From assembly GCA_016350165.1 (NCBI GenBank), contig CP066225.1:1488001-1552000 (forward strand): a stretch of 64,000 bases of DNA. The letters run 5' to 3'. Positions 2,891 to 38,977 of this stretch are shown here, in pieces (positions within the stretch are counted from its first letter, which is position 1; each line of letters begins with the position of its first letter). Origin of the DNA: Planctomycetota bacterium (GTDB lineage Bacteria > Planctomycetota > Phycisphaerae > Phycisphaerales > Phycisphaeraceae). The notes under the pieces were generated by a model. The model did not search any database. It had not been told where the DNA came from and was given only the letters and a program-made list of their open reading frames with translations. A program made the position numbers and the translations under genes.

Positions 2891-3945
2891 ATCTCTGTAC
2901 CCGCAAAGTCTTCATATAAAAGACTTGTTCATAAACCAATTGACCTCTTCATACCCACAGTGCCAATCCAATTGCACTGCAAGCGCCCAGCCAATACACA
3001 TAGGCTACACATGCACTCTTTTTAATCATTGCCCTTTATTTCGCCCTGCTTCTGCAGCACATTCTTCAACGACCAAAGCACATGATCCCACCCCTCAATC
3101 ACCCAATCCCCTCACTCACCAATCGTCACCCATTACACAAATAGATAACGCATTACCCACATCATTCTTGCTCAGCATCAACAGTAATCTGTAACACATC
3201 ACCATCAACACCGACCTGACTCCCATCTCTCTTCAATCATCCATGCACACCCATACACCAATGACGACCAAACACCCCTGTACGACAAGTGCACCCTCAC
3301 CTGCTACATATATGACGCAGCCCCCGCGCATATGTTCTATAAAAAACAATCAAAATCATTGAAAAATAACATTTAAACTAACTTCAAATGCATTCTTCAA
3401 GCATCTGCACAATATCTGTTTAACTTCCCTGATTCGTTGACTTGAATTCACACCACTGATTGGAAGTTGATTCATCTTTTAAACATGCATTGCCCAAGGA
3501 ACTTATCTACTGCAACTGCAGACTGCCCTGTCGCCCTTCTGAAATTTTCAATACACACATCCTACATCAACTGCCCGCTCTATGTCATCTACAACAACCG
3601 ACTTCTAACATCATTGCAATTTTTGCTCGGCAGTTTTTCAACACTGGGATAATTTCGCGCCGATTTCCACCTATATTCGTGGCTTATTACACAAATATGC
3701 ACGATTGCTCATTGTTACAAACCGTATTCAGTACCACTGATGCACAAATTCTTTCCAGAATCACCTATTAAGCCGTGAAAAAATCGCCCGTTGCGGTTAT
3801 AAATCACATAAACAATTATTTGTATCACATAGGATACAAATGTAAATTACGGCTCGCAGACTCTCTTCCAAAACTGCAGCCACGCAACTCTAACCTCTGG
3901 TTAGAACTGTTTTTAAAGCATTAATCAGTTACTCAGGAGACGATC
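2891..3945. other. Intergenic region upstream of xylA, about 1 kb
   Basis: This stretch separates the divergent large membrane protein and xylA. Short open frames here (for example 3460-3771) lack a ribosome site and have no recognisable composition, so I read it as non-coding. A 7-bp inverted repeat AAGTCTT/AAGACTT (2906-2926) sits just ahead of the minus-strand gene. A perfect 9-bp inverted repeat lies at 3818-3841, ahead of xylA. Nothing else is evident. Confidence 0.6.
3818..3841. promoter_or_regulatory. Candidate operator palindrome upstream of xylA
   Basis: ATTTGTATC and its exact reverse complement GATACAAAT are separated by six bases, about 105 bases ahead of the xylA start. The symmetry and position suit a dimeric repressor or activator of xylose use, but no regulator gene is adjacent, so this is inference. 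Confidence 0.45.
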
Positions 3946-5121
3946 ATGCCAACCGATCTATATACGCCTACCCCAGCTGATAAATTCACTTTTGGGCTGT
4001 GGACTGTTGGAAATCCGGGCCGTGACCCGTTCGGTGAACCCACCCGCTCCCCTCTCACACCAGCCGAGATTGTTGATGCGATCGGCGTTGCGGGCGGCGC
4101 ATACGGCGTGAACTTCCATGACAATGACCTGATCCCAATTGATGCGAGCGAAGCGGAAGCTGACGCGATCAAAAAGGATTTTCGCAAAGCATTGCGTCGT
4201 AATAAGTTGAAAGTGCCAATGGCCACCACGAACCTGTTCACTGATCCTGTGTTTAAGGACGGTGCATTCACATCAAATGATGCTGAGGTTCGTGCGTATG
4301 CGATTCATAAAACGATGAAGTCAATGCAGTTGGGTGCGGAGTTTGGTGCAAAGATTTATGTGATGTGGGGCGGCCGCGAGGGTACGGAATCGGATGCGAC
4401 GAAAGATCCGGTTTTGGCGTGCAAGCGTTTCCGCGAAGCGGTGAACTTCCTTTGTAAGTACAACAAGGATCAAGGGTTCGGATATAAGTTTGCACTGGAA
4501 GCGAAGCCGAATGAACCACGTGGTCATATCTACTTTGCGGTGACGGGTTCATACCTTGCATTCATCGAAACACTGGACCACCCAGAAATGGTGGGCGTGA
4601 ATCCTGAGTTCGCTCACGAAAACATGGCTGGCCTGAACTTTGTCCACCACGTAGCCCAAGCGATCGACGCTAAAAAGCTGTTCCACATCGACTTAAACGA
4701 TCAGGTCATGTGTCGATATGACCAGGATTTCCGCTTTGGCAGCAATAGCTACAAGCAATCGTTCTTCCTGACGAAGCTGCTTATCGATACGAAGTACAAG
4801 GGCTGCAAGCACTTCGATTCCCATGCATACCGCCAGTCAGATGCGAAGGATGTGATTGAGTTCGCGAAAGGCTCCATGCGTTCTTACAAGGTTCTGGAAG
4901 CGAAGGCACATAAGTTCAATAACGACAAGGCAATCCAGAAACTGCTGAATGTGATCAACCGCGAAAACAGCAAGCTGCAGACAATGACTAAGAAGTTCAC
5001 GAAAAAGAGCATGAAGGATTTGCTGGCTTATGATTTTGATCGTAAAGCGATGGCAGCGAAGCCACTGCCTTACGAAGAGTTAGACCAACTGACCTTCGAT
5101 CTGCTGATGGGCGTACGCTAA
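3946..5121 (+). CDS. xylA: Xylose isomerase
   Basis: Interconverts D-xylose and D-xylulose in the cytoplasm with two divalent metal ions. The protein is 391 residues, the length of the short class I (actinobacterial-type) enzymes. The catalytic FHDND motif is seen at residues 57-61 (His58, Asp61), as are the metal- and substrate-binding EAKPNEPRG segment and the DLNDQ...RYDQDFRFG metal site. The ATG start has a clear AGGAG site about ten bases upstream. The gene stands alone: no xylulokinase or xylose transporter lies next to it. A strong terminator follows at 5193-5232. A 24-bp palindrome upstream is a candidate regulatory site. Confidence 0.96.
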   Translation: MPTDLYTPTPADKFTFGLWTVGNPGRDPFGEPTRSPLTPAEIVDAIGVAGGAYGVNFHDNDLIPIDASEAEADAIKKDFRKALRRNKLKVPMATTNLFTDPVFKDGAFTSNDAEVRAYAIHKTMKSMQLGAEFGAKIYVMWGGREGTESDATKDPVLACKRFREAVNFLCKYNKDQGFGYKFALEAKPNEPRGHIYFAVTGSYLAFIETLDHPEMVGVNPEFAHENMAGLNFVHHVAQAIDAKKLFHIDLNDQVMCRYDQDFRFGSNSYKQSFFLTKLLIDTKYKGCKHFDSHAYRQSDAKDVIEFAKGSMRSYKVLEAKAHKFNNDKAIQKLLNVINRENSKLQTMTKKFTKKSMKDLLAYDFDRKAMAAKPLPYEELDQLTFDLLMGVR

Positions 5122-5192
5122 TTCAGTGGATCATGGATGGAGGATGGCAGGCGTGAAGTTTTGCCTGATCTAAAAACGGATCAAACCTCCTT

Positions 5193-5232
5193 AAAAAAAC
5201 TGCTGAGGCACCGGGGCATCAGCAGTTTTTTT
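5193..5232 (+). terminator. Rho-independent terminator of xylA
   Basis: CTGCTGA...TCAGCAG stem flanked by A-run and T-run, 70 bases after the xylA stop. Confidence 0.85.
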
Positions 5233-5892
5233 ATGCGCGCATCAGGTGCAAAGATGCTGCTACAAACGTGTGTTTTTCAGATGCCGAGATGATGTCGTTT
5301 TCGTGCGCAGGCGCGCATGTTTTTTGGTGAAGATGGACTGAATTTGAAAGTGTTTTAAGCGCGCACAAAAGCGATGTTCGTGCGCGCCTTTTGCGGTAAG
5401 TGCTTTAAATGATTGGGTTAAGGGCGAAAATCAAGAATGGTCAGAAATGGACAGAAAACCGCTAGAAACGACGAGAAACGGTCAGGAATGATCGCACTTT
5501 GGTTAAGAAAATGAGTTATACAGTGGTTATACACAACGGAATTTGCGCACAAATGCGCGCCTCAGTTTTTTTCTGTGCGCATAAAAACGAAAGGCAGTTA
5601 GGCAATTAATTCGGGTGATGCGACGTAAGTCGGATGTGTCTGGTGGTGTGAGTCGCGAATGGGATAGCACTGAGCATGGGATTAGGTTTGGGTCATGGAT
5701 TGGTTTATACTGCGCGTCTCTGGCAAGTGCGGTTTGGTAATTGAACATATCGGTGGATCACGCTTTAAGCAGTGATTTAGTGATGTGTTCCAGCATCCCC
5801 CTATTCAACAGTTAGATGAGCGATTGATCAAGAAGCAGCGATGCCTTGTGTTGAGCTTTGCTGCGCGTGCAAATCCATGAAGGTTTGGAATT
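5233..5892. other. Intergenic region rich in GCGC sites and AGAAATGG-like words
   Basis: No convincing gene. Several GTGCGCGC/GCGCGCAC sites (near 5302, 5358, 5379, 5545, 5574) and a run of AGAATGG/AGAAATGG/AGAAACGG words (5434-5490) give it the same texture as the dispersed repeat at 21181 and 38612. The conserved core of that repeat is absent, so it is at most a decayed relative. A minus-strand open frame at 5527-5748 is not supported. Confidence 0.5.
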
Positions 5893-6399
5893 GTGATGAA
5901 CTGGATGAAAAACATATTGGTATTAGGCTGTTTATTACTGATGGTGGTCATACAGGTTGGCTGCGCGACCGTGGTGAATGGAACGACGCAAGAAGTAACG
6001 GTCGATACGAAGCCTAGCGGGGCGATTGTGATGGTTGATGAGTTAATGACGCATACGCCAGTGACGTTGAAACTGAGCCGAAAGAAGGATCATGTAATCA
6101 CGCTGATGATGATGGGATATAAGCCAGCAAAAGTTCATATTAAACGTGGCTTTAATCCTGTATCGCTAGGTAATATCGGCGTCGCTGCTGCGACGGGTGG
6201 CATTGGTGGTGTGGGTGGCTTAGTAGATTGGGCAACGGGGAGTAGCAGGACGTTGAACCCGAGTGATATTTATGTCGTGATGGATTTAGATGATGATTCG
6301 GGTGAAGCGGTGGTTTGGGATGCGGAGTCACTTGAGGAAGCTGCGAAGAAACGTGAAGAGCAAGAAGAAGCAGCACAAGATCAAGAGACGCATGTGTGA
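5893..6399 (+). CDS. Small PEGA-like lipoprotein or exported protein
   Basis: 168 residues. The GTG start is chosen because AAGG lies nine bases before it; ATG codons at 5896 and 5905 are alternatives. An N-terminal hydrophobic segment ends in QVGC (Cys24), an imperfect lipobox. The region TVDTKPSGAIVMVDE...TPVTLKL resembles a PEGA-type surface repeat. A glycine-rich hydrophobic stretch (GVAAATGGIGGVGGLVDWA) follows, then an acidic, Glu/Gln-rich tail. It is probably envelope-associated; the exact role is unknown. It is followed by a terminator and is not part of an operon. Confidence 0.75.
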   Translation: MMNWMKNILVLGCLLLMVVIQVGCATVVNGTTQEVTVDTKPSGAIVMVDELMTHTPVTLKLSRKKDHVITLMMMGYKPAKVHIKRGFNPVSLGNIGVAAATGGIGGVGGLVDWATGSSRTLNPSDIYVVMDLDDDSGEAVVWDAESLEEAAKKREEQEEAAQDQETHV

Positions 6400-6446
6400 T
6401 GGGTATGAAATAAAAGCAGCTTATAAAAAGAACAACGCGAGAACAC

Positions 6447-6480
6447 GAAAACGTTCGACTGATCAAGTCGGGCGTTTTTG
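6447..6480 (+). terminator. Terminator after the PEGA-like lipoprotein gene
   Basis: Imperfect stem AAAACG.TCGACT / AGTCG..CGTTTTT around a GATCA loop, ending in five T residues. Confidence 0.7.
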
Positions 6481-6965
6481 TATGTACTGACGGTTCAGTC
6501 ATGAGGGGGAATGTATGGGGGTTAAAAAGGCAGCTATGTGATGAAGTGGATGTCTGAGGGTGAATATGAGGACATGAAAAGCCTATAAAAAACGGGTATT
6601 TCGGGGGATATTCGTCAGTATCAAGGTAAAGCGAGGGGGTGTTGTTTTGAAAATTGGGGATAAGATTAGAATCACGCATGAAAGAGATATAGATTGGGGA
6701 GTAAGGCACGTCGGACGGTTAGGGAGTCCGTTATAGGTCGCGGACTCTGAGAAAAACACACAGTAGGATTTGAAGACAGCGGAAACGCTGCGGTTATTTG
6801 GCATCAAGAGCACCGCTAATCAGAGCGATAAGTTAACTAGTGCGAGCAGATCAATTGTGCTCACACTGCTTGGTGCGCGGCAGCAACTGGGAATGCTTCA
6901 TGAGCTCTAAAAACATCTATTCTATGAATAGTTGCGGCAAGGAGGACAGCAATAAGGCTGTTTGT
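6481..6965. other. Intergenic region upstream of the hybrid histidine kinase
   Basis: Holds the promoter region of the kinase gene and the in-frame upstream extension (from GTG 6840) that may or may not be translated. A small ACTGA/TCAGT hairpin lies near 6486-6497. Nothing else is recognised. Confidence 0.4.
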
Positions 6966-9245
6966 ATGCGCACTCATAGAGTGATGGGTTTTCTTAAATG
7001 CGAGTGCCTTTTAAAGTTGTTGATTATTGGCGTCTTCCTGCTTGTGGGATATATGGTTTACACGACGCTATATGCGATCCAGAAGGATACGGGGAGTATT
7101 GCACTTTCATATCTGAATGATGTCGGGGTGAACCTGCGTGACCAGATAAATGATGAGATTGATCCGGCATTATTGCGCACGCGGATGTTTGCTCAGGACC
7201 CGAGGATTATTCGGGGTTTGGAAGCAGACGATATGGGTGAATTGGTTGGCAGGGTGAATGAACTGATTCAAATGACGATGGATGTGGATGCGATAGCGAT
7301 CCATGATCGTGAAGGTAAGTTGATTGCGTTGAATAGCGTAAACAGCATGGGTGTGCCTTACGATAATCAGGAGGAAATCAAGCGACTTTATGAGGTGATG
7401 ACAGCACCAGGCAATGGTGTGAAGGAGTGCCTGACGAATACTGAAACGATGGAGCAGATTGAATTTCAGTTTGAATGCCGAATTGCGCCGGTGTTGTTTG
7501 ATTCGGCAGGTTTGAGCATCGCGGTAAGTGTGCCAGTGTTTAAGCCTGATACGAGTGAGCGTATTGGCGTGGTGAGTACACGGTTGAGGTTCAATCGAAT
7601 CAATCAGTTGATACTGGCTGAGCATTTTTTGAATGAAGGAAACAGTATTTACTTTATTACGGATGATGGTCAGTATTTTTCAGAAAGTATTATGAGTGGT
7701 GAGGCGATCCCGCCTGTGGATGCGCAGCAGTTGGAGGATTTGATTGCGCCGCTGGTTGAGCAGGATGCGGATGATTTGCTGGCCAGGAGTGATGACTTTT
7801 ATTTGAACATTTTTTCGTTGGGGCGGCCGGGCGAGATGCTTGGTGCGAACATGCACATCATGTTGGTCGCGAGAGATCAGTGGTTGGATCAGGAGCGGTA
7901 TCGCGTTGAGATGCTGAACCTTGTGATGACGCTGACGCTGTTGCTGTTGGCGGGTTTAGTGGTGATGCAGTTCTGGAACAGGGCAAAGCAGAACAAGATT
8001 AAGATGGAGTTAATTGATGCGAGGAATGCGGCTGAGGCTGCGAGCGAAGCGAAGAGTGAGTTTCTTGCGAACATGAGCCATGAGATCAGGACGCCGATGA
8101 CGGCGATTCTTGGTTATGCGGATACTTTAGGTGATAACGTGCCTTCGAGTAATGGTGGGGTGCAGGATGCGGTGAATGCGATCCATCGTAATGGTGAGCA
8201 TTTACTGCGTATTATCAATGATATTCTAGACTTCTCGAAGATTGAGGTTGGGAAGTTGAAGGTGATGAAGGAGAGCATGTCGCCGATATTGGTGCTGGGT
8301 GAGGTTGCGAGCATGATGCGGCCTAAGGCAATCGAGAAGGGGCTGAAACTTGAGGTGAAGATCGAGAGCTTGGTGCCTGAAAAGATTACGAATGATGCGA
8401 CGAGGATCAGGCAGATTTTGATAAATCTGGTAAGCAATGCGATCAAGTTCACGAGTGAAGGGAAGGTATGGATTAAGGTGAGGTGTACGGATAGCGAGGG
8501 GAAGGAGAATCCTGAAGGTGTGGGTGGATGGCTTGTGTATGAGGTGGGTGATACGGGCGTTGGTATTGATGATCAGATGCAACAGATGATTTTTGAGCCG
8601 TTCAGTCAGGTGGACAGTAGTTCGACGAGAAAGGTTGGGGGTACTGGTTTGGGATTGTCGATCACGAAGCGTGTTTGCTCGCTGCTTGGTGGTGAGATGT
8701 CGTTTGAGAGTAAAGCTGGGGAAGGTTCGGTGTTCAGAGTGAGCTTGCCTTTGACGGACACGAGCTATCGCATGGTTGAGTGGCCGACGTTGATGCATGT
8801 GAGTGAAGCAGGACAAACAGCGGATGAAGGATGGTCGAAGGATAAACGATTGGCAGGCAAACGAATTCTGTTGGCTGAGGATGCTGCAGACAATCGTAAG
8901 CTGATCACGCTGCTGCTTCAGAAATCTGGGGCGGAAATTGTGGGTGTTGAGAATGGTCAATTGGCATTGGATAAGCTTGCAGCGGAGCCTGAGAAGTTTG
9001 ATCTGGTGGTGATGGACATGCAGATGCCTGTGAAGGATGGATTTATGGCGACACGTGAGGCGAGAGAACGTGGCGAGACGGTGCCGATTCTGGGGCTGAC
9101 GGCTCATGCACTGGAAGGCGATCGTGCGAAATGCCTAGAGGCAGGGTGTGATGATTATTCGACGAAGCCGATTGTGAGAGAGAAGTTAATCGCACTTTGC
9201 GTAAAAATGATCGAGATGGGTGAGTCGAGAAAATCAGGGTTATAA
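6966..9245 (+). CDS. Membrane-bound hybrid sensor histidine kinase
   Basis: Two-component kinase with a receiver domain fused at the C-terminus. I place the start at ATG 6966 (AAGG eight bases upstream); the frame is open back to GTG 6840 but that start has no ribosome site. Order (759 residues): membrane helix about 9-35, extracytoplasmic sensor region about 40-310, second helix about 316-338, HisKA with NMSHEIRTPM (His372), HATPase_c with NLVSNAIKFT, DTGVGI, FEPFSQVD and GGTGLGL, then a receiver with phospho-acceptor Asp684 in VVMDMQMP and the conserved Lys in STKP. The ligand is unknown. No separate response regulator lies nearby, so the phosphoryl group must go elsewhere (inference). Confidence 0.92.
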   Translation: MRTHRVMGFLKCECLLKLLIIGVFLLVGYMVYTTLYAIQKDTGSIALSYLNDVGVNLRDQINDEIDPALLRTRMFAQDPRIIRGLEADDMGELVGRVNELIQMTMDVDAIAIHDREGKLIALNSVNSMGVPYDNQEEIKRLYEVMTAPGNGVKECLTNTETMEQIEFQFECRIAPVLFDSAGLSIAVSVPVFKPDTSERIGVVSTRLRFNRINQLILAEHFLNEGNSIYFITDDGQYFSESIMSGEAIPPVDAQQLEDLIAPLVEQDADDLLARSDDFYLNIFSLGRPGEMLGANMHIMLVARDQWLDQERYRVEMLNLVMTLTLLLLAGLVVMQFWNRAKQNKIKMELIDARNAAEAASEAKSEFLANMSHEIRTPMTAILGYADTLGDNVPSSNGGVQDAVNAIHRNGEHLLRIINDILDFSKIEVGKLKVMKESMSPILVLGEVASMMRPKAIEKGLKLEVKIESLVPEKITNDATRIRQILINLVSNAIKFTSEGKVWIKVRCTDSEGKENPEGVGGWLVYEVGDTGVGIDDQMQQMIFEPFSQVDSSSTRKVGGTGLGLSITKRVCSLLGGEMSFESKAGEGSVFRVSLPLTDTSYRMVEWPTLMHVSEAGQTADEGWSKDKRLAGKRILLAEDAADNRKLITLLLQKSGAEIVGVENGQLALDKLAAEPEKFDLVVMDMQMPVKDGFMATREARERGETVPILGLTAHALEGDRAKCLEAGCDDYSTKPIVREKLIALCVKMIEMGESRKSGL

Positions 9246-9705
9246 GACTGTTTGATAAGAAAAAGATCGAATCGGGGTTGGGGCACGTCTGGATAATCAA
9301 AGGGGTAAGAATTTGTACAAAAAGCAGATGATAAATTGCGGTTTCGCTAGTGGAATGCGTGATAGATATTTATATGTGTCACGTGGCGGGGCGTGCGATT
9401 GGTGTTGTTTGCATAAAGAGCATGTGTCTGAATAAAAGATTGGAATGTTGCGTGAAAAAAGAGCTTGCGGGGGTGTGAGAATGGGCAAGGTCGATTATCA
9501 TAGTAGCGACGAAACGGGGCATGCATTTTTGGGGTCTATAGCTGGTGGTGGTGTTGGATAGAAGACAATGGAGCGGGAAGCTGGGCCACTGGGGAGAATG
9601 CTGGTGTGAGAAAGCGCGTAGCATCATGGGACGATGTGCGCGAAGATTTTGAACATAAAGAATATGAATCACGGTTTACGAGTTGCGTAAGCAGGGATGT
9701 GACTA
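9246..9705. other. Intergenic region upstream of the ExbB-like operon
   Basis: 460 bases without a credible gene; probably carries the promoter of the following four-gene operon. No strong hairpin or palindrome seen. Confidence 0.4.
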
Positions 9706-10521
9706 ATGAAGAAATTGATGGTACTGAGCGGAGCGGGTTTATTTGCGGTGGCTGGGTTGATGCCTGAATTGGCATTTGGTCAGGTGAATGAAAGTGGCAC
9801 GATCGATGCTGCAACGGGTGCATTGCCGACGCTAAAGGAAATGTTCATGTTCTCGCCATATATCAATGGTGCGATCGCTGTGCTGTCAGTGATTGCGGTG
9901 TTGTTGTTTGTGGTGTACATGTTGGGGATCAGCACACGGACGATGGTGCCTGGCGATTTTGTTGATGAAGTGATGAAGCTGGTGCTGCGTAAGAAGTATG
10001 ACGCTGCAGCGGATTTGTGTCGTGCGAATCGTGGTATGTTCGTTGCGAGTGTTGTGCAGCGTTGCTGCGAGAATGCTGGCAAGGGACAGAGCGTGATCAT
10101 GGACATGATTGATTCTGAAGGCAAACGTCGTGCAGACATGCTTTGGAACAGAATCAGTTATTTATCTGACATCGCAAATGTAGCTCCGATGCTTGGTCTG
10201 CTCGGCACAGTGGTCGGTATGATCACAGCATTCTTCGGCCTCGAACAACAAACTGGCAGCATCAATGCAAAAATTTTGAGTACTGGCGTTGGCCAAGCTA
10301 TGGCGACCACAATGTTCGGTTTGGTCGTCGGTATTGCAGCGACAATCTTCTATTCAATCATCAAAGGTCGTGCGACTCGCACACTTGCTGAAGCTGAACA
10401 GGTTGTGCACTCAATCGCTGACCACATTAAACGTGATGCTGAAGAAGCATCTGCCTCAGGTGGTGGCACAGCGACAAAGAAGAAAACCCGCCGCAAGACA
10501 AGCGAAGGGGAGGATGCGTAA
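9706..10521 (+). CDS. MotA/TolQ/ExbB family proton-channel protein
   Basis: 271 residues. Begins with a signal-peptide-like segment (1-25), followed by a first membrane helix (about 54-74), a cytoplasmic region, and the paired helices IANVAPMLGLLGTVVGMITA and GQAMATTMFGLVVGIAATIF that define the MotA/TolQ/ExbB domain. These proteins form a pentameric proton channel around an ExbD/TolR dimer and turn the proton gradient into mechanical work. A basic tail (KKKTRRK) ends the protein. The next gene (ExbD-like) starts directly after the stop codon. Together with the TPR and TonB/VWA genes downstream it forms one transcription unit. Third-position base use changes midway, near 10150. Confidence 0.93.
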   Translation: MKKLMVLSGAGLFAVAGLMPELAFGQVNESGTIDAATGALPTLKEMFMFSPYINGAIAVLSVIAVLLFVVYMLGISTRTMVPGDFVDEVMKLVLRKKYDAAADLCRANRGMFVASVVQRCCENAGKGQSVIMDMIDSEGKRRADMLWNRISYLSDIANVAPMLGLLGTVVGMITAFFGLEQQTGSINAKILSTGVGQAMATTMFGLVVGIAATIFYSIIKGRATRTLAEAEQVVHSIADHIKRDAEEASASGGGTATKKKTRRKTSEGEDA

Positions 10522-10962
10522 ATGGGGTTTGCCAGCGAGAGTCGTGAACGAGCAAGACCTGTGATCCCTTTAGCGGGGATGGTGGATGTGCTGTTTTTGC
10601 TGCTGATTTTTTTCATGACAGCGAGCACGTTACGTGATCAGGAATTGCAAATGGACGTTACCCTGCCCGGCAGCGAAAATCCGAAATTAGCTGCGAATAT
10701 TGATGCCATGCAGACGATTGTCACCGTCGACAAACTCAACCAGATCTATCTGGGCGAACGTGCGGTTTCGATGGAGCAGTTGCGTGAAGTTTTAATGCAG
10801 ATCGCAACGGATTACCCAGATGAGACATTGGTCGTGCGTGGTGACCGTGACAGTAGTTACGGCGTTGCAATCGAAATCATGGACTTTGCTCAGGCAAAGG
10901 GCATCAAAGATGTTCGTGTTGCGGAAGTTAAAAAAGCCAGCGCAATTTCTAGCCTGGAGTAG
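10522..10962 (+). CDS. ExbD/TolR family protein
   Basis: 146 residues with one N-terminal membrane helix (MVDVLFLLLIFFMTAS) carrying the conserved proton-path aspartate at Asp22, followed by a periplasmic domain with the ExbD/TolR pattern (VTVDKLNQIYLGERAVSMEQL, here cited by position 65-86, and VVRGDRDSSYG). The ATG abuts the stop of the ExbB-like gene, so the two are translationally coupled and presumably assemble into one channel complex in the inner membrane. Confidence 0.93.
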   Translation: MGFASESRERARPVIPLAGMVDVLFLLLIFFMTASTLRDQELQMDVTLPGSENPKLAANIDAMQTIVTVDKLNQIYLGERAVSMEQLREVLMQIATDYPDETLVVRGDRDSSYGVAIEIMDFAQAKGIKDVRVAEVKKASAISSLE

Positions 10963-11046
10963 TACATAACAAATCAGCTGATTTGCTAGTGGGTTTTTGT
11001 TTAAAACATTCGGGGATTTTTCGGGGGCGATGAATCGGGAGATGTC

Positions 11047-13683
11047 GTGACAGAGTCAAGGATGAATAGCGGACTATCGAATCAACGCAGCGAAAAGCGT
11101 GAAAGCTTTGCTGCGGGGTTAGGCGTTCGGTTGGGGAAGATCTTAAAAGGTGGTTTAGTCACAGCTGTTGTTTGTAGTAGCCTGCTATTCGCTCAAGGAG
11201 AAATACGCGCGCAGAGTGGCGCAGAGTTTCAGCAATTCCGTTTTGCATACAAATTAATGCAACGCGGTGAAACTGAATTGGCTGGCGAAGCATTCGATCA
11301 GTACATCGACCAATTCCCCGAAGCTGACAAAGTAGGCGATGCACTTTACTACCGTGCTGTTCTGTACCAACACGAAGGCAAGAGCTCTGCTGCTGCACGA
11401 GAACTCTCAAAAATCAAAGCCACCAAACTTGTTCCTGAGGGCGCAGTCAATCTGCTTAAAGGACAAGTCATGCTCGAAGAGAAGTGGTACGACGAAGCTC
11501 TACTGACTCTCGAAAAAGTGGATGTCGCCAAACTCAAACCGGGTGCTGCCGCTGCGACACTTTATCTTAAAGGTAAGGCATATCGTGGTGCGGGTAACAT
11601 GCAGGCCGCGGCAAAAGCGCTGAAAGAATGTGCTGAGTTTGAGAGTGATGTTCAGGTTCGAGCGATCATTGAACTATCACGTGTACTAGCCAAACTCGAT
11701 GACACCAAGGGTGCTATTCAACAGTTAGAGCGCTGCCTTGCATTGGATTCCATGGAATACGAAGCAGAAGCAGCTCGCATGGCTGGTGACCTGAGTTATC
11801 GCAACGGCGACTACGATCAGGCTGTCGTGTTCTACGATCTAGTCCTGAAAGAACATCAGACATCTGATCAGTTTGGCACTAGTGTGCTAGGCATGATGTG
11901 GGCTCACCATGCAGCTGGCCGCTATGAGATCGTGCTCAAAAAACTCGAAGAATACAAAGGCTTCTTAAAGCCCAATGAGATGGGCGAAGCATTCTATGTC
12001 TCCGGCGCCAGTTCTGCAGCAGCGGATCATCACGAGCAAGCTGTTGAGTTGATGAATGAAGCACTCGGCCTGGTCGGCAAGGGGATTATGGAAGAGAAAG
12101 TCCTCTACCGTTTAGCTGTCAGTCAATTCGAACTCGGCTGGATGGGCGAGATGAAAGCGACCGTCGCAAGACTACAAGCTGGTTATAAAGAATCAGAATT
12201 ATTAGCCGATGCAATGTTCCTCATCGCCGTTGCAGAAGCCGAACGTGGCGATGTCACCGCTGGTGCCGCAAAATTAACTGAAATGATTGATAAGGGTGAA
12301 AGCCATCCTTACTATCATCAAGCTGTTTTGCGTCGCGCAAGATTGTATGAACAGAACGGCGCAATTGAAGCTGCTGCTGAAGACTACAAACGTTACGTAC
12401 AAATCGGCAAACTTGATAACCCCGCTGTCATGCGTGCTGCACTTCAGTATGTTGATCTCAAATATCAACTGGGTGATTACGCCGAAGCTGAGACTGTCAC
12501 CCAATCAATGCTTGAGCTTCGTTATGACGCAGATCCAGGCGAGCAGCCAACAGGCCTTGAGCCAGGCATTGAACAGGAAGCCATGTTCCGTTTAATGCTC
12601 GCACAGATTAAACTCAATCAGCATAATAATGCACTTAAAACACTCGATGAACTCGAGTCTAAGTATCCGCTGCACGCCTACCGAACCTATGGCACATACT
12701 ACCGCGGCCTCCTCCTCATGAGCAGCGGCAACAAAGTCGAAGCAATCGAACCATTACAAAAAGCAGCTGGTTTTGTAACATTGCCAACTGAATTGCGAAT
12801 CAACGCACTGCGTTTGCTCGGCGTCTACTACCGTCAGCTTGAAGAAGGCGATCAGACTGAAGACGTCTTTGCACAAATGGAAGACCTCGGCGGCAAAAAC
12901 AATCTCCAAGAGGACGAACTGCTTTGGTTAGCTGAGCGATTGAGTATAGATGCGCATGATGAAGCTGAAAAATATGCAAGAGCCATCGGCTACCTCGACC
13001 TGCTAATCGGCTGGGGTGAAGCAAACGAAGAAGCTGTCAGCGGCGGCGCTATGGCAAGAGCCTTATACATCCGCGGCCAACTACAACGCCAAGAAGGCGA
13101 GCTTGAAGCCGCAAAAGAATCGTTCGAATACGTGATCGCGTTGGGTAAAGGTTACGACCTTGATTCACGCATTGAACTCGCTGCAGTCATCGGCGAGATG
13201 GGCGATCTCCCCAAAGCACTTGCTGAACTCAAAGACATGCGAAGCAGTGAAGCGAGTCACATCGCAGCCAAGGCATTGCTTGAAAGTGCGAGAATCTGCA
13301 GAAAAATTGCACAAAAACAAATGCTCGACGACCAATCGATCAGTGCGAAGAAAACAAGACATGAAGCAGTCATGCTGCTGAAGCGTATTATTTTGATTTA
13401 CCCATACCAGGAACTCTCACCGTTGCCACAACAAGCGTATCTTGAGTTGGCATCAATCGAGAATGTCATGGGTAATAATGAAGGTGAGTTGGAACTGATC
13501 GCTGAGATGTCAGAGAAATATCCTGACAGCGAGTACGCGACTTATGCCAAAGCATTGCTTGCTGAACGCATGGGTAAACTCGGCGATGCAGAAGTCTACG
13601 TAAGTAGACTTGAAAACACGCAAGATCTGTATCTTGAAAATCGTATTAAATTGCTGGCGGGCAGATTGGGGGCTCAACGATGA
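11047..13683 (+). CDS. Long periplasmic TPR-repeat protein of the ExbBD operon
   Basis: 878 residues from a GTG start with GGGAG upstream; ATG 11062 is an alternative. Residues about 25-55 form a signal peptide (LVTAVVCSSLLFAQG), so the bulk should be periplasmic. The remainder is helical repeats with tetratricopeptide spacing throughout (for example LMQRGETELAGEAFDQYIDQF, positions about 65-85, and AALQYVDLKYQLGDYAEAE). The layout recalls CpoB/YbgF, the TPR partner of the Tol-Pal machine, but this protein is over three times longer. The stop overlaps the start of the next gene by four bases (ATGA), so the two products are likely made together and may interact (inference). Confidence 0.85.
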   Translation: MTESRMNSGLSNQRSEKRESFAAGLGVRLGKILKGGLVTAVVCSSLLFAQGEIRAQSGAEFQQFRFAYKLMQRGETELAGEAFDQYIDQFPEADKVGDALYYRAVLYQHEGKSSAAARELSKIKATKLVPEGAVNLLKGQVMLEEKWYDEALLTLEKVDVAKLKPGAAAATLYLKGKAYRGAGNMQAAAKALKECAEFESDVQVRAIIELSRVLAKLDDTKGAIQQLERCLALDSMEYEAEAARMAGDLSYRNGDYDQAVVFYDLVLKEHQTSDQFGTSVLGMMWAHHAAGRYEIVLKKLEEYKGFLKPNEMGEAFYVSGASSAAADHHEQAVELMNEALGLVGKGIMEEKVLYRLAVSQFELGWMGEMKATVARLQAGYKESELLADAMFLIAVAEAERGDVTAGAAKLTEMIDKGESHPYYHQAVLRRARLYEQNGAIEAAAEDYKRYVQIGKLDNPAVMRAALQYVDLKYQLGDYAEAETVTQSMLELRYDADPGEQPTGLEPGIEQEAMFRLMLAQIKLNQHNNALKTLDELESKYPLHAYRTYGTYYRGLLLMSSGNKVEAIEPLQKAAGFVTLPTELRINALRLLGVYYRQLEEGDQTEDVFAQMEDLGGKNNLQEDELLWLAERLSIDAHDEAEKYARAIGYLDLLIGWGEANEEAVSGGAMARALYIRGQLQRQEGELEAAKESFEYVIALGKGYDLDSRIELAAVIGEMGDLPKALAELKDMRSSEASHIAAKALLESARICRKIAQKQMLDDQSISAKKTRHEAVMLLKRIILIYPYQELSPLPQQAYLELASIENVMGNNEGELELIAEMSEKYPDSEYATYAKALLAERMGKLGDAEVYVSRLENTQDLYLENRIKLLAGRLGAQR

Positions 13684-15494
13684 GTGGTGGTGATCGTGGA
13701 TATCAAGCGAGTATGTTGGTGAGATTACCAACCCTCGTCGTGCTTGTGGGGGTTTTGTGCAGCGGTGCGTTGCACTCAGGTATCCTGTGGTATTTCTTCG
13801 ACAGCCCACTCGGCCACGTCGATCCTGAATGGCTTGAAATGACCAACGGCCCTGTCCGCATCAAACGCGCAGCATATGACAAAGTCATTGACGACTATGC
13901 AGCAGGCGGTAATGGTGGTGGCGAAAACGGAACGGGTAATGAGCTACCGAAAGACATAACTGATCAAGGCCGCGATTTACTTGAAAACGTTGATGCGCCA
14001 ATCAACAAAACCATCGAACAACTCGACATGCAACTTCGCAACCCAGACGAAAGCGAAGAGCGTGAAGACATGCTCGCCATCGAACTGCCAACTTTCGAGT
14101 TGCCTAACGACGTATTAGAGATCGATGAACAGCTCATAGCTGACCAAGGGTTCAAAGATGTCAACGACATCGGCCTCGGTGCTGAAGCAATCAATGTCCA
14201 AAGCAGTCAGGCTCAAGCTTCACAAATGCTCAATGACATCCCCGGCAGCGCCGCATTCGGGCCCGGTATCGGTAGTGGTACTGGACAAGGTGGCATTGGT
14301 GAAGGCAATGGTTACAAACGTATCCGCAGCATCGGACGTGAACATAAAGATGCTATCGATCGAGAAACAAGCCGCTTCATTGATCGTCAAATCAAAGAAG
14401 ACAAGATCCCACTCGACATGCTCATCGAACTGCCCGACCCTATTGGCGACGATGACGCACTTGCGATCTTCCAAAAACCAAAACCTCTCGACACCGACTT
14501 CGACTATCTCGTCACGCGTTATGATCCGAATGACGAAGATGGCTATTTTGAAGTCGAAGTTTCTGCATTACGTAGCCTCAAGAAGTTGCCGACGATGAAA
14601 AAAGATGTGGTCTTCCTTGTTGATACTTCAAGCAGTATTGATCAGGAATGGGTCAATCAGGTCATGCGTGGCATCGGCCCATCACTTCGTATGATGAACG
14701 AGGGCGATCGCTTCAACATCGTACTTTTCAACGAGAAAATACGCTTCTTTAGTCGTACTGGCTTAGTCGATGCAACCCCAGCCAACATCGAACGTGCTTC
14801 CAAATTCATTTGGAATACCGAAGCCAAAGGCGCCACCGACGTCAACGCAGCGCTTAGCCAGATGCTTGCCCGTGACATCAATCACGATCGTGTTTATGAC
14901 ATTGTCCTGATCTCCGATGGCATGCCAACTCGTGGTGTCATGGATACACGTAAGCTCATCAACCTCATCACCAAAAACAACGACCTCAACGCATCAATCT
15001 ACTGCATCGGTATTGGCGGCAAACAAAACCGCGAACTTCTCAACTTCCTCGCTTATCGCAACAAAGGTTACTGTCTCTTCGTTGAGCAACGTGGCCTCAC
15101 GATGGACGTAGTCACCGACATGATGAGCCGCTTGCGTTATCCGATCATCAAAGACCTTAAAGTTAACGTTGCAGGCAAGACAGTCAGTGAAGTGTACCCA
15201 ATCAACCTCGCCAACATTCATCAAGGCGAACGCTTCTCAATCCTCGGCCGCTTCAATCGGTCCGACGATTTCATGATCCAGGTCATGGGCTACAACAACG
15301 GCCAACCCGTTGACTTCACACTCAACCGCAACCTCCGCAACGCACAAGGCGGCCAAGGCCAAATCGCCTACGACTGGGCTTTCTGGAAACTCCACCACCT
15401 CTACAGCGAAATCCTCCGCAAGGGCATGACCAACGATCTTAAACTCCAGATCGCCAAGATCCGCAACCGCTTCAAGATGAAGACCGTTTATTAA
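13680..15494 (+). CDS. TonB-like membrane anchor fused to a von Willebrand factor A domain
   Basis: 604 residues, start overlapping the TPR gene stop. Residues about 16-40 form one membrane helix containing Ser28-x-x-x-His32, the same Ser/His spacing that E. coli TonB uses (Ser16, His20) to engage ExbB/ExbD. A long acidic, Gly/Asn-rich linker follows (about 60-300). Next comes a VWA domain with a MIDAS-type DTSSS (Asp315), the downstream GATDVNAAL threonine and SDGMPTRG. No TonB C-terminal domain is seen. Known: TonB-like proteins transmit ExbBD work to the outer membrane, and VWA domains bind protein partners through a metal. Inference: the VWA domain replaces the usual outer-membrane-receptor-binding end. 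The C-terminus is helical and basic. Confidence 0.85.
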   Translation: MSGGDRGYQASMLVRLPTLVVLVGVLCSGALHSGILWYFFDSPLGHVDPEWLEMTNGPVRIKRAAYDKVIDDYAAGGNGGGENGTGNELPKDITDQGRDLLENVDAPINKTIEQLDMQLRNPDESEEREDMLAIELPTFELPNDVLEIDEQLIADQGFKDVNDIGLGAEAINVQSSQAQASQMLNDIPGSAAFGPGIGSGTGQGGIGEGNGYKRIRSIGREHKDAIDRETSRFIDRQIKEDKIPLDMLIELPDPIGDDDALAIFQKPKPLDTDFDYLVTRYDPNDEDGYFEVEVSALRSLKKLPTMKKDVVFLVDTSSSIDQEWVNQVMRGIGPSLRMMNEGDRFNIVLFNEKIRFFSRTGLVDATPANIERASKFIWNTEAKGATDVNAALSQMLARDINHDRVYDIVLISDGMPTRGVMDTRKLINLITKNNDLNASIYCIGIGGKQNRELLNFLAYRNKGYCLFVEQRGLTMDVVTDMMSRLRYPIIKDLKVNVAGKTVSEVYPINLANIHQGERFSILGRFNRSDDFMIQVMGYNNGQPVDFTLNRNLRNAQGGQGQIAYDWAFWKLHHLYSEILRKGMTNDLKLQIAKIRNRFKMKTVY

Positions 15495-15962
15495 TATTGT
15501 TTACACATCTAAGCAGCTGTAAGCAAGTTGTATTCTTCAAAGCAACGCTCTTCCTCCGCCATCATATACACACATCCTGCGCTTACATACACGACTGATC
15601 ACCCATCGATTAACAACGTATGAATATTAATATCTATACCTGTTTTTAGTCCTAATCATTTACAGGTTAACTTGTCTTTTATCATACTACACATATTTTC
15701 AACAATTCGTTTTATTGAATCATTCTTATTTAATTCAGTAATACCACCGTACAACGATACCAGAAGCCATTTCGCCTCCTATAAAAAATATATTCATAAT
15801 TTTCTGTTGTACGAATGCTTACTACCAATTACATTCAGCGTACACTTAGTCCGATAAGTGTATTTATTTAAACCTATAAAAACGTATAAATCTGCAACAA
15901 GTCTTTTTATGCAGGCAATCTATCCGTCTATCAACAGTCACTCTTCTAATGGGGCACTTACA
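15495..15962. other. AT-rich intergenic region
   Basis: AT-rich stretch between the ExbBD operon and the PEP-CTERM gene. The open frame continues upstream of the chosen start to 15858, but that segment does not look like a signal peptide. No terminator for the operon is obvious. Confidence 0.4.
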
Positions 15963-17933
15963 ATGAGGCAATTCCAAAAGCATTTGACTTACTTCACATC
16001 AACAGCCTTTTGTAGTTTATGTTTTGTATCTAGCGCATCCGCTGGATTTATAGGTACTACCGGCAACTGGGTTTACGATAGTTCGGACGTCGGCACAAAA
16101 TATAAAAATATCGCCCCCGGCACTTCGGCAAAGGTACATGGCTCCATCCCCAATGTTGGTGACAGAGTACACTTTGGTTCTAACAACATGTATTGGTTAA
16201 GCAACACTGGCTCTGGCAACAACACAGTCACGTACACCGGCAAAACTTATCTCCATACTCACGTAAAATCAGGCCTCCCCTTTTATGCAATCTCATTTGG
16301 ACACCTAACTAACGACACGCCTGAACTCACAATTAATCTTACGAATTCCGCCAACAATAACACCGCTGAAGTACTTGAAGTCAGATTCCAGGAATCATCT
16401 CTTTCTAACAAAAATCGTGAGGTCGGCCTCATCAGGAATGCTGGCGGCAACATCCGCTTCAACGGCGACATCCTCGGAACATTAAGCACACTTAATTATT
16501 TTGGCGATGCATACACCATTCGAGCTTTAAAATCCGATTACAGCGACCCTGACAACTCCGGCAACATCACAGTAGATGGCAACATCACAGGTACCGTTTC
16601 AGCCAAAGGCCATCGTTTCGTCAGAGCCTTTTACGCTCAATCTGACATAAAAATCAATGGTGATATTTCCTCAGACGCTGTTGTGGAAGCATTTTCCGAG
16701 GATTACGCCATCGCATTACAATCAAGTCGCGATGTGATAATAGAAGGCGATATCGCGGGAAACATTGAAGCTGATAGTGTAAGAACACGTGGAATACATG
16801 GGAGTCGCAACGTTACAATTTCAAACGGTATCTCTGGTACCATTAATGCAATAGGCACTTCTTATGCTTATGGTATATCCGGAAGCAATATCAACATCAA
16901 TGGTGAGTTGTCCGGAACCATCTACGCTGAAAATACAGGTGACTCTGCGTATGGGATCTACGCCTATGATTCACTTAATATTTCGAACATCACCGGAACA
17001 ATAAAAGCTTTAAAAAACTCTAATCAAGCCGCGACTGCTATTGCAGTTAAAAACACTTCTACATCAAATGACTCTATCACACTAGGCAATGGAGCCAACA
17101 TCATTGGCGATATCGATCTCAGTGGTAACACCGCCGACGGAGGTGACACGATCTCACTAACCGGCCAAGGTACTTTCAGTTACGATATGTATAACGTTGA
17201 AAACCTTAATATTGTTGCTGATTACACAGCATACCACAATTGGCACCTCAATCTTGCCAACGCGCCAAACGCAAACCGTAATTCATTTAAAAATATCACA
17301 ATCGATCGAAGTACAGTTTATATTAACAGTAATATTAAAACGCAAAACTTCAACATGCTAAGCGGTAATCTTCATTACAATCTTGCTGACCTCAATGATG
17401 AGATTACTATTGTCGCCACACAGGATGCAAATGTTAGTGGCACTATAGTAATAGCTAAAGATGAAAATACTAATTACGAATTAGGTGATATCTACACATT
17501 AATAGACAGCGAAAACCTAACCGGCACTTTATATACAACGCTCAACGAAGTCGACTACAACCACGCATTTGCTCTCTTATTTGATCAATACGGCAACGAT
17601 GACGTAACAGCACGCGTTTCGTTATATGGCGACCTCAATCTTGACGACGTGGTTGACGAAACTGATGTCGATATTTTCATAAGCAACTACCAACAACCCG
17701 GCACCTGGGTCGATGGAGATTTCGATGGTAGGGGCTGGATTGATTTTACAGATTTACTGCTACTGAAACGTAATTATGTACCTAACAACAAAAGCAGCCA
17801 AATTTCAAAATTCATGACTTCCCTTGATTCTTATACCTATAGCATGAGTCGATCAGTTTCATCGATACCTGAACCAACTTCTTTGGCTTTACTCGGCCTA
17901 TCCAGTCTGATCATGATACGTAGACGCAACTAA
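15963..17933 (+). CDS. Repetitive PEP-CTERM surface protein with dockerin-like segment
   Basis: 656 residues from ATG 15963, chosen because a signal peptide (MRQFQKHLTYFTSTAFCSLC) begins there; the frame is open back to 15858. Residues about 175-390 contain repeats of roughly 35 residues built on I.I.G.I.GTI.A...AYGI, the pattern of a right-handed beta-helix. Near the C-terminus two calcium-loop-like segments (DLNLDDVVDETDVDIF and DFDGRGWIDFTDLLLLKRNY) resemble dockerin type I. The protein ends in the PEP-CTERM tripartite tail (IPEPTSLALLGL, hydrophobic helix, RRRN). It is presumably exported, processed by an exosortase encoded elsewhere, and displayed or released. Ligand unknown. Terminator downstream. 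Confidence 0.82.
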   Translation: MRQFQKHLTYFTSTAFCSLCFVSSASAGFIGTTGNWVYDSSDVGTKYKNIAPGTSAKVHGSIPNVGDRVHFGSNNMYWLSNTGSGNNTVTYTGKTYLHTHVKSGLPFYAISFGHLTNDTPELTINLTNSANNNTAEVLEVRFQESSLSNKNREVGLIRNAGGNIRFNGDILGTLSTLNYFGDAYTIRALKSDYSDPDNSGNITVDGNITGTVSAKGHRFVRAFYAQSDIKINGDISSDAVVEAFSEDYAIALQSSRDVIIEGDIAGNIEADSVRTRGIHGSRNVTISNGISGTINAIGTSYAYGISGSNININGELSGTIYAENTGDSAYGIYAYDSLNISNITGTIKALKNSNQAATAIAVKNTSTSNDSITLGNGANIIGDIDLSGNTADGGDTISLTGQGTFSYDMYNVENLNIVADYTAYHNWHLNLANAPNANRNSFKNITIDRSTVYINSNIKTQNFNMLSGNLHYNLADLNDEITIVATQDANVSGTIVIAKDENTNYELGDIYTLIDSENLTGTLYTTLNEVDYNHAFALLFDQYGNDDVTARVSLYGDLNLDDVVDETDVDIFISNYQQPGTWVDGDFDGRGWIDFTDLLLLKRNYVPNNKSSQISKFMTSLDSYTYSMSRSVSSIPEPTSLALLGLSSLIMIRRRN

Positions 17934-21166: not shown

Positions 21167-21787
21167 TGTGGGGTCGAGTTTCGATTTTGTGCGCGCGTTT
21201 TGTTTGAAAGTTAGTTTTTAAGATGGTCAAAAAAGTGGATTTTAAAATGTGTCTATGCGCGTATTAGTCGAATGAGTGAGCGGTATTGTTAAGTTTTTGG
21301 AAAAACAAAGGACTTATGAAAGTGGAGGCGCGCTTTTGTGCGCACGAATGTGAAAGGTTATTGATTTTCGGTGACTTTCCCGTAGTAAGAAATGTACAGA
21401 AATGGTGTGAAAATGTTTAAGAATGGCGCGGAATGGGTAAAGAATGGTTAGAAATGGACTGGTTTTGAAGGGGCGATTGCGTGTTTGTGCGCGCAGTTTG
21501 TTTGGTCGTTGGGTTTGGTATGACGTTTGCATATGTTATGTATTTGGGAGAGTTACAATTGCGGTATCCTCAATGGGGCCGGATGGGCCTTTGAGTGGTG
21601 AGCGAAGGATTTGGTTTTGGATGGGGTTGGGGTTTGTGGGGGTGTGAGCTTTGAATGAAGTTTGGGGTGTGATGGGTTGTTTCACTTTAGCGTATCGTTA
21701 GTTGTTGAGAGGGTGTGATGGCTTTAGGGGGTTTGGGTATTAGAATATTGTGCAGAGATAAGCATCTGGGTTGAAGAGGAGTTTGAT
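21167..21787. other. Intergenic region containing repeat copy A and a TTCACT...CGTTAG motif
   Basis: Non-coding between the VOC gene and the TVP38-like gene. After the repeat, a motif TTGTTTCACTTTAGCG followed by TATCGTTAGTTGTTGAG (21678-21709) recurs in related form at 22973 and 39041. Confidence 0.6.
21181..21559 (+). repeat. Dispersed intergenic repeat, copy A
   Basis: About 380 bases that match 38612-38977 over their whole length in the same orientation. Blocks identical or nearly so include TTTTGTTTGAAAGTT, AAAAACAAAGGACTTATGAA and TTTTCGGTGACTTTCCCGTA. Four GTGCGC/GCGCGC sites sit at the same relative places in both copies (21188, 21256, 21328-21344, 21486). The two copies differ by many substitutions and small indels, so the duplication is old. 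No open frame is conserved between copies. Confidence 0.85.
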
Positions 21788-38611: not shown

Positions 38612-38977
38612 TCGGTTTTGTGCGCACGTTTTGTTTGAAAGTTGGTTTTTGAGATGGTCTTAAAGAGGGGTTTTATAAATCGAGCTGTGCGCGATTTGGT
38701 CAAGTTGATGAGCGGTATTGTGAAGTTTTATGAAAAACAAAGGACTTATGAATGGTGCGCGGCGCTTTTGTGCGCACGGATGTGAAAGTTAATCGATTTT
38801 CGGTGACTTTCCCGTATACGGAAATGAGTGGTTTTGGCTTGAAATGAAGCGGAAATGGTTTGTTTTGGGATGGTTTGGGTTAGAAACGATAAAGGTTTCG
38901 AAGGAGGGAATCGGTTTTGTGCGCGCGGTTTGTGATGGGGTTGGTTTTGGTATGAGTTTTGCTATGGGAGAGAGAAT
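38612..38977 (+). repeat. Dispersed intergenic repeat, copy B
   Basis: Aligns end to end with 21181-21559: TCGGTTTTGTGCGCACG at the start, AAAAACAAAGGACTTATGAA and ATTTTCGGTGACTTTCCCGT in the core, and TGTGCGCGCGGTTTG near the end. GCGC sites at 38620, 38687, 38756-38776 and 38919 match those of copy A. Both copies lie between two plus-strand genes, downstream of a gene end. Confidence 0.85.

Follow-up and report, generated by a model that had tools for sequence, protein, structure and literature searches.

A probable proton-driven envelope machine with a TonB-type anchor and a von Willebrand A head in a planctomycete of the family Phycisphaeraceae

The 64,000-nucleotide stretch of planctomycete DNA analysed here (positions 1,488,001 to 1,552,000 of contig CP066225.1, assembly GCA_016350165.1; hereafter the window) contains four consecutive genes which encode, respectively, an ExbB-type channel subunit, an ExbD-type subunit, a large protein of tetratricopeptide repeats (TPR) and a protein ending in a von Willebrand A (VWA) domain. 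Together they probably make up a single machine that spans the envelope and is powered by protons, as in ExbBD/TolQR systems, with the VWA protein as an arm anchored in the manner of TonB and bearing a VWA head. The gene unit, the residues of the motor and of the anchor, the fold of the head and the conservation of its metal site were recognised by comparing sequences and models with those of relatives; from these we infer how the arm might dock and be pulled, that its head may bind a ligand, and what part the TPR protein may play.

Williams-Jones et al. (2025; PMC12204202) describe vWA force transducers, of unknown function and with a suggested role in gliding, encoded beside tolQ, tolR and TPR genes in bacteria of the Planctomycetes-Verrucomicrobia-Chlamydiae (PVC) group. 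Many of these have an SHLS helix followed by a disordered linker (domain II, about 100 residues) and a vWA head, whose fold is likened there to YfbK, with two Rossmann folds; the vWA gene often comes after TPR and tolQ-like genes and two heterologous tolR-like ones, and AlphaFold 3 models of the complex place the helix on the motor through a histidine. A literature search found no description of such transducers beyond this paper. The window unit belongs to the kind described there, and the kind itself is not new. The present analysis adds the head type, related to the inter-alpha-trypsin inhibitor heavy chains (ITIH), the quantified co-occurrence of anchor and motor, an exception locus (L144) and the accessory distribution of the unit. 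It also adds that two vWA machines share a genome in which TonB_C, TolB_N and Plug domains were not detected.

Gene order and distribution of the unit

The open reading frames (Table 1) agree with the layout given in a preliminary description of this DNA, namely four plus-strand genes with no spacing between the first two and a four-base overlap between the last two. The spacing of exbB and exbD is 0 bases, 84 bases separate exbD from the TPR gene, and the TPR and VWA genes overlap by 4 bases (ATGA). The residues that it had singled out, Asp22 of ExbD, Ser28 and His32 of the VWA protein and the DTSSS motif at 315-319, were likewise located by script.

The VWA protein as query gave a match of some kind in 36 of the 51 genomes of the GTDB family. 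The unit was judged from the match list to be present in 28 of the 51 and in 18 of the 33 well-covered genomes (completeness >=90%, contamination <=5%), two genomes (G008 and G018) being judged on C-terminal fragments only; the other matches were to longer VWA relatives. Loci were read in 24 of the 28 positive genomes, the window included. The order exbB-exbD-TPR-VWA, whose recurrence in other planctomycetes had been put forward as a check, held in 22 of these 24 loci, contig ends truncating the other two (L050 and L055), and also in 13 loci selected from beyond the family: two in the same taxonomic order (L142, L143), seven elsewhere in the phylum (L139, L140, L141, L145, L147, L148, L153), two in Candidatus Auribacterota (L093, L100), and L201 and L202, which come from the phylum of the genome of L100. 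The planctomycete loci in this selection were picked mostly for short VWA frames. Of 17 regions fetched outside the family, 9 had the full order, 7 had no motor genes (L146, L149, L150, L151, L152, L154, L155) and one, L144, lacked exbB; in L146, L149 and L152 a contig end removes the N-terminus, and the upstream sequence of L151 is limited to 1.3 kb. The survey drew on 392 genomes of the phylum and on the matches listed for them, and the extent of the unit beyond the family is to be taken as a minimum.

Association of anchor and motor was assessed in the 55 of 107 distinct head homologues that have at least 5.5 kb of upstream sequence. An S/TxxxH helix and an ExbB were both present in 28 and both missing in 23 (L144 among them), with ExbB but no serine in two and the motif without ExbB in two (Fisher p 4e-11, not corrected for relatedness). 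The former two, L047 and L049, have Val or Gly at the serine position and keep the histidine; in the latter two, L221 and L231, the motif is a look-alike within the signal peptides of 793- and 757-residue frames. Read in the other direction, 23 of the 25 head homologues with enough flank and no anchor motif have no exbB. The preliminary description had staked its reading against orthologues that lack Ser-xxx-His and occur away from exbB and exbD; anchor and exbB were found to co-occur, with L144 as the sole exception locus. There (3685-8239, genome G175) exbD, TPR and VWA genes are kept, a 724-residue frame instead of exbB precedes exbD, and the helix has no histidine. An ExbB and two ExbDs are encoded on the opposite strand of the same locus, ending about 3.7 kb past the VWA gene, with the ExbB about 4.7 kb past it. 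Mirror-tree correlations among the four proteins (0.83-0.93, 595 pairs) are inflated by shared ancestry and were not used as evidence.

The flanks showed no fifth gene conserved across lineages, either in an all-against-all comparison within the family (among the matches listed) or in Pfam scans of 29 neighbour proteins. The candidates considered, among them a biotin-synthase-like radical SAM gene (upstream in 10 loci), a D-Tyr-tRNA deacylase gene (3' of the unit in 11 loci or more) and genes for signal peptidase and sulfatases, were not seen across lineages. Sulfatase genes stand beside the unit in L045, L047, L048, L049, L053, L055 and L142, as checked by Pfam in L047, L055 and L142 and by membership of the same sequence cluster in the other four. 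In both Auribacterota loci, L093 (10162-11394) and L100 (10032-11432), a gene of the AsmA/DUF748 family lies directly downstream of the VWA gene, which is a hint of envelope lipid traffic.

The motor subunits

Hydropathy analysis of ExbB revealed a signal-like N-terminal segment and three more hydrophobic segments. In the 35 four-gene loci Thr168 and Thr202 are invariant, Thr201 is kept in 34, and Ser61, in the first transmembrane (TM) helix, in all 35. ExbD has a single TM helix with Asp22 (codon 10585-10587), the presumed proton carrier, which is likewise kept in 35 of 35. The two proteins combine the family domains with the proton-path residues (Asp22, Thr168/Thr202) by which a 5:2 ExbB/ExbD proton motor is recognised. 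The alignment of the window ExbB with solved ExbB and TolQ structures was significant over the TM2-TM3 part only, so that the equivalence of Ser61 to Ser34 of the Escherichia coli protein is not proven.

The motor subunits also vary between lineages. An N-terminal IPT/TIG domain was present on the ExbB of all seven distant Planctomycetota units tested (L139, L140, L141, L145, L147, L148, L153) and was not found on that of L093, L142, L143 or L201. A second ExbD-like gene lies between exbD and the TPR gene in L054 (12262-12681) and L060 (6270-6683) only; the protein it encodes resembles a lipoprotein at its N-terminus (GGCACS) and lacks the TM aspartate.

The anchor and linker of the VWA protein

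In the AlphaFold2 (AF2) model of the VWA protein (mean predicted local distance difference test score, pLDDT, 73.1), an N-terminal helix (residues 17-40, block pLDDT 66-90) is followed by a region of low confidence over most of residues 56-258 (mostly pLDDT <50) and by a confidently predicted head at about 258-604. The preliminary description had noted in this helix a Ser28-xxx-His32 pattern with the spacing found in TonB, and the pattern proved to be conserved among relatives. In alignment A4, which comprises 34 sequences, His32 is present in 34 of 34 and Ser28 in 30, the rest being two Thr, one Val and one Gly; their entropies are 0 and 0.70 bits, respectively, and the next most conserved of residues 16-40 stands at 1.91. 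This alignment omits L144, which has neither the histidine nor an adjacent exbB, and the contig-cut L050; L201 and L202 were identified later and both have the anchor motif. An alignment of 24 family sequences, in which L050 has the histidine, gave 24 of 24 for His32 and 20 of 24 for Ser28. After the helix comes a candidate motor box, whose Arg63 is invariant in 17 family sequences (alignment A1). No TonB or TolA C-terminal Pfam model was listed for the VWA protein at E<=0.1, in keeping with the earlier statement that it has no TonB domain and ends in a VWA domain with an intact DTSSS motif (VWA_3, 1.7e-15).

The head domain and its metal site

Profile searches matched the head to ITIH4 (1.7e-41) and ITIH1 (1e-39), that is, to inter-alpha-trypsin inhibitor heavy chains H4 and H1, and the AF2 model of the head aligned with ITIH1 (6fpy) over residues 271-604 (VIA-align Z 26.0, 324 residues, rmsd 4.5). 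Each of the metal-site residues D315, S317, S319, T386 and D413 is present in all 34 sequences of A4. By profile and predicted structure, residues 271-604 are therefore an ITIH-type VWA with an intact metal-ion-dependent adhesion site (MIDAS), and more than a bare VWA domain. ITIH and bacterial VIT-VWA proteins share with the window head the VWA itself, the hybrid strands, the C-terminal helices and the MIDAS. Pfam listed no VIT domain for the window protein, which differs from its VIT-VWA relatives in having a TM anchor and linker where that domain would stand; a VIT domain (PF08487) is present in the relative L118, the one such case confirmed by Pfam. Among the longer homologues, which lack the anchor, none of the 23 loci counted showed an ExbB upstream. 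A match of the VWA protein to the NCBIfam model marine_srt_targ (2.2e-35, far below its cut-off) fits the kinship of the head with the VIT-VWA relatives.

The TPR protein

The TPR protein has a hydrophobic, signal-like N-terminus and is presumed to be a periplasmic partner or adaptor. It matches tol_pal_ybgF at 2.7e-22, below the cut-off of that model, resembles PorW/SprE of the type IX secretion system (T9SS) at 1e-19, far below cut-off, and gives BamD-like matches, also below cut-off. Its gene directly precedes the VWA gene in the four-gene loci; in L055 a sulfatase gene intervenes.

Table 1. Features of the four-gene unit in the window
Feature	Position	Strand	Basis
exbB, ExbB/TolQ/MotA-type proton channel subunit, 271 aa	9706-10521	+	Pfam MotA_ExbB PF01618 4.3e-24; hydropathy
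exbD, ExbD/TolR-type subunit, 146 aa	10522-10962	+	Pfam ExbD PF02472 4.9e-25
TPR-repeat protein gene, 878 aa, GTG start	11047-13683	+	many TPR Pfam models
Probable TonB-anchored VWA transducer, 604 aa	13680-15494	+	Pfam VWA_3 1.7e-15; AF2 model m5e5353b135f2
VWA protein helix 17-40, with Ser28 (13761-13763) and His32 (13773-13775)	13728-13799	+	AF2 model; conservation
Candidate motor box, VWA protein residues 58-66, P-V-R-I-K-R-A-A-Y	13851-13877	+	alignment A1
VWA protein linker, most of residues 56-258, presumably disordered	13845-14453	+	pLDDT mostly <50
VWA protein head (folded, residues 258-604), made up of an ITIH-type VWA, a beta hybrid part and helices at the C-terminus	14451-15491	+	fold and profile matches
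MIDAS motif DTSSS, residues 315-319	14622-14636	+	conserved 34/34
MIDAS-completing Thr386 and Asp413	14835-14837 and 14916-14918	+	conserved 34/34

Other motors and Ton/Tol components of the chromosome

The chromosome (a single contig of 5,234,020 bases) gave matches of two types, six to MotA/ExbB and five to ExbD, and one of the ExbD matches falls below cut-off. Apart from the window unit they fall to flagellar MotAB (L065), a second vWA system (L066), L068, L070 and lone channel-type matches (L067, L069). The second system (7321-13685 of L066; G000:C1:3,953,320-3,959,684) consists of a VWA protein, an ExbB, two different ExbDs and a 976-residue TPR-like protein. It resembles the window unit in that a VWA protein with an S-x3-H helix (PFLISLAIH) is encoded beside ExbB, ExbD and a large TPR-like protein, and differs in that the VWA gene comes first, there are two different ExbDs, and the 367-residue VWA protein (modelled with TM 48-82 and VWA 163-346) lacks the ITIH hybrid part. 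The profiles of the two VWA proteins align over the VWA domain only, and a profile search of the PDB with the second type gave no match. Second-type VWA matches were found in 48 of the 51 family genomes and in all 33 well-covered ones, and the layout in 16 of the 17 loci read, L208 having no motor genes in the stretch; in several loci this VWA gene stands in tandem with another.

L068 (7840-10373) encodes a short ExbB/ExbD pair with a proline-rich TonB-like protein, and L070 (7070-8566) an ExbD with another TonB-like protein. Of these partners, which have no Pfam match, one has long PEP repeats and SxxxH and the other LLLH; the 322-residue protein of L070 is TonB-like by eye, and in the 288-residue protein of L068 the helix and the proline-rich part matched the NCBIfam TonB model at 1e-10, which is far short of the cut-off. 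It is possible that Pfam misses TonB-like proteins in this genome. No match to TonB_C was found in the chromosome, nor to TonB_2, whose positive control rang in one genome only, nor to TolB_N (PF04052), whose control rings in E. coli, Caulobacter and Bacteroides. Plug (PF07715) had no match in this genome or in G044, a genus mate assembled as a single contig; the unit is present in both. Three OmpA-domain matches were found, one of them beside flagellar MotA.

Comparison with known systems

The window unit shares with ExbBD-TonB and TolQRA the ExbB/ExbD subunits, with their conserved proton-path residues, and the S-x3-H anchor of the arm; unlike theirs, its arm has no TonB or TolA C-terminal domain, and its genome has no TolB_N or Plug match. 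With the transducers of PMC12204202 it has in common the Ser/His TM helix, a presumably disordered linker, the vWA head, the neighbouring motor and TPR genes, a PVC host and the failure to find TolA or TonB. Those transducers often go with a pair of tolR genes, whereas the window has one exbD; judged by the wording of that description, their linkers are about 100 residues long as against about 200 here, and on the same footing their heads are YfbK-like and the window head ITIH-type.

Proposed mechanism and points against it

In the mechanism that we favour, ExbB and ExbD would form a motor in the inner membrane and the VWA protein would be its force arm, the N-terminal helix docking on the outside of ExbB through Ser28 and His32 as do TonB and TolA; a contact with the ExbD dimer may be made by the short motif that follows the helix. 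The flexible linker of some 200 residues would reach into the periplasm, where the ITIH-type head would grip a ligand through its metal site, and proton flow would pull the head so that the ligand is moved or released. Because its gene constantly accompanies the VWA gene, the TPR product is the best candidate for the constant partner of the head, or else it may be an adaptor to the outer membrane or the cell wall. The preliminary description had envisaged an energised envelope system with a giant periplasmic TPR scaffold and a moving arm ending in a metal-dependent protein-binding domain. The conservation of Ser-xxx-His and the company of exbB and exbD support the motor and the TonB-anchored VWA arm in that proposal, with L144 as the exception; the metal-dependent binding and the scaffold in it would be further, putative features.

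Several points weigh against this mechanism. The published SHLS motif is kept only as its S and H: position 39 (11 after Ser28) and position 43 (15 after Ser28), which by the TonB spacing would be the L and second S, are Leu in 6 of 34 and Ser in 6 of 34, respectively, with Pro at position 43 in 13. On the side of the motor, PMC12215075 has TonB contacting Ser34 and Trp38 of ExbB, and TolA contacting Ser28 and Trp32 of TolQ; in the 35 loci the ExbB residue four after Ser61 is mostly L, V or I instead of Trp. The candidate motor box resembles the D-box pattern of PMC10907165 approximately, as a partial match. The literature searched offered no data on a ligand, a phenotype or expression. Lastly, the case of L144 means that exbD, TPR and VWA genes can make up a set with neither the histidine nor an adjacent exbB, and at the same time the joint absence fits a coupling of histidine and motor.

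Alternative roles

It is somewhat unlikely that the unit is surface machinery whose motor moves an adhesin, a glycan or a secreted cargo, as in gliding, export or polysaccharide handling. The role in gliding suggested in PMC12204202 points this way, as do the resemblance of the TPR protein to PorW/SprE, the sulfatase genes that adjoin or interrupt the unit in several loci, and the AsmA/DUF748 gene next to it in L093 and L100. The sulfatase neighbours may, however, be due to chance, and a fifth gene conserved across lineages was not seen in the flanks examined.

A substitute for Tol-Pal, in which the arm would energise constriction or the tethering of outer membrane and cell wall and the TPR protein would take the part of CpoB, is unlikely. 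The missing TolB_N, TonB_C and TonB_2 matches are consistent with it, as are the remaining OmpA-domain proteins and the likeness of the TPR protein to tol_pal_ybgF. On the other hand, the unit has no TolB-like partner, and its occurrence in about half of the family, unlike that expected of a housekeeping function, disfavours an essential Tol-like task; the second vWA-motor type, whose VWA has a match in every well-covered genome, suits housekeeping better.

That the arm replaces TonB, opening outer-membrane receptors for nutrient uptake, is highly improbable. The TonB-type anchor, the ExbBD motor and the missing TonB_C match would allow it, but the head is no TonB C-terminal domain, and receptor presence is unrelated to the unit: in the 33 well-covered genomes, assigned by judgment from match lists, TonB-dependent receptors (Plug) occur in 7 of 18 with the unit and 5 of 15 without (p = 1). 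As a main reading it was rejected on the lack of a Plug match in both the own genome and the genus mate.

VWA proteins are a common class in which membrane anchors are frequent, and L144 keeps its exbD-TPR-VWA set without histidine or adjacent exbB; even so, the least probable reading is that the VWA protein is a membrane-anchored protein of BatA-like or chaperone-like type merely sharing an operon with the motor, given the invariant histidine and near-invariant serine in an otherwise variable helix, the co-occurrence of anchor and motor (28/2/2/23), and the fact that the locus without adjacent exbB is the very one without the histidine.

GC skew around the window

Independently of gene strand, GC skew around the window follows a sawtooth in which abrupt rises from about -0.4 to +0.4 are followed by slower declines. 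Up steps lie in the window near 4050, 19550 and 37350, and third-position skew runs from +0.56 to -0.61 across 6840-17933. Over 464 kb (G000:C1:1388001-1852000) there are 11 up and 2 down steps at a threshold of >=0.45, the up steps being spaced 15-77 kb apart, and 16 up and 13 down at 0.3; the genus mate G044 behaves likewise, with 6 up and 3 down steps over 200 kb at a threshold of 0.35. Mean |skew| is 0.05-0.10 in sampled stretches of five other family genomes, as against 0.2-0.28. The sawtooth looks like many replication-origin-like points, which to our knowledge would be very unusual for a bacterium.

A motif, TTTTGTGCGC(A/G)CG, clusters at the skew steps, with window sites at 21187-21485 and 38618-38917 and more copies elsewhere in G000 and in G044. 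Its 8-base core occurs 42 times, in 28 cases no more than 2 kb away from an up step against 13% expected, the motif having been picked on the same data; in G044 the figure is 14 of 20 near up steps, against 12% expected. The motif occurs as triplets 149-150 bp apart inside an intergenic repeated element of roughly 340 bp, for which no Rfam family matched at the gathering score.

Conclusions

Energised links between inner and outer membranes are known mainly from Ton and Tol-Pal, and the same motor here seems to pull a different hand. It is tempting to suggest, if only tentatively, that VWA arms, in place of Tol-Pal and Ton, are what motors of the ExbB/ExbD type drive in this lineage, with two such machines working side by side, and that the ITIH head of the window protein could be a force-driven, metal-dependent gripper acting on the TPR protein or its cargo. 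Presence in about half of the family, tight gene order in two phyla and an intact metal site make the unit a clean target for genetics, and L144 offers a natural internal control for the anchor. Its function, once solved, would show uses of the motor beyond nutrient uptake and outer-membrane constriction.

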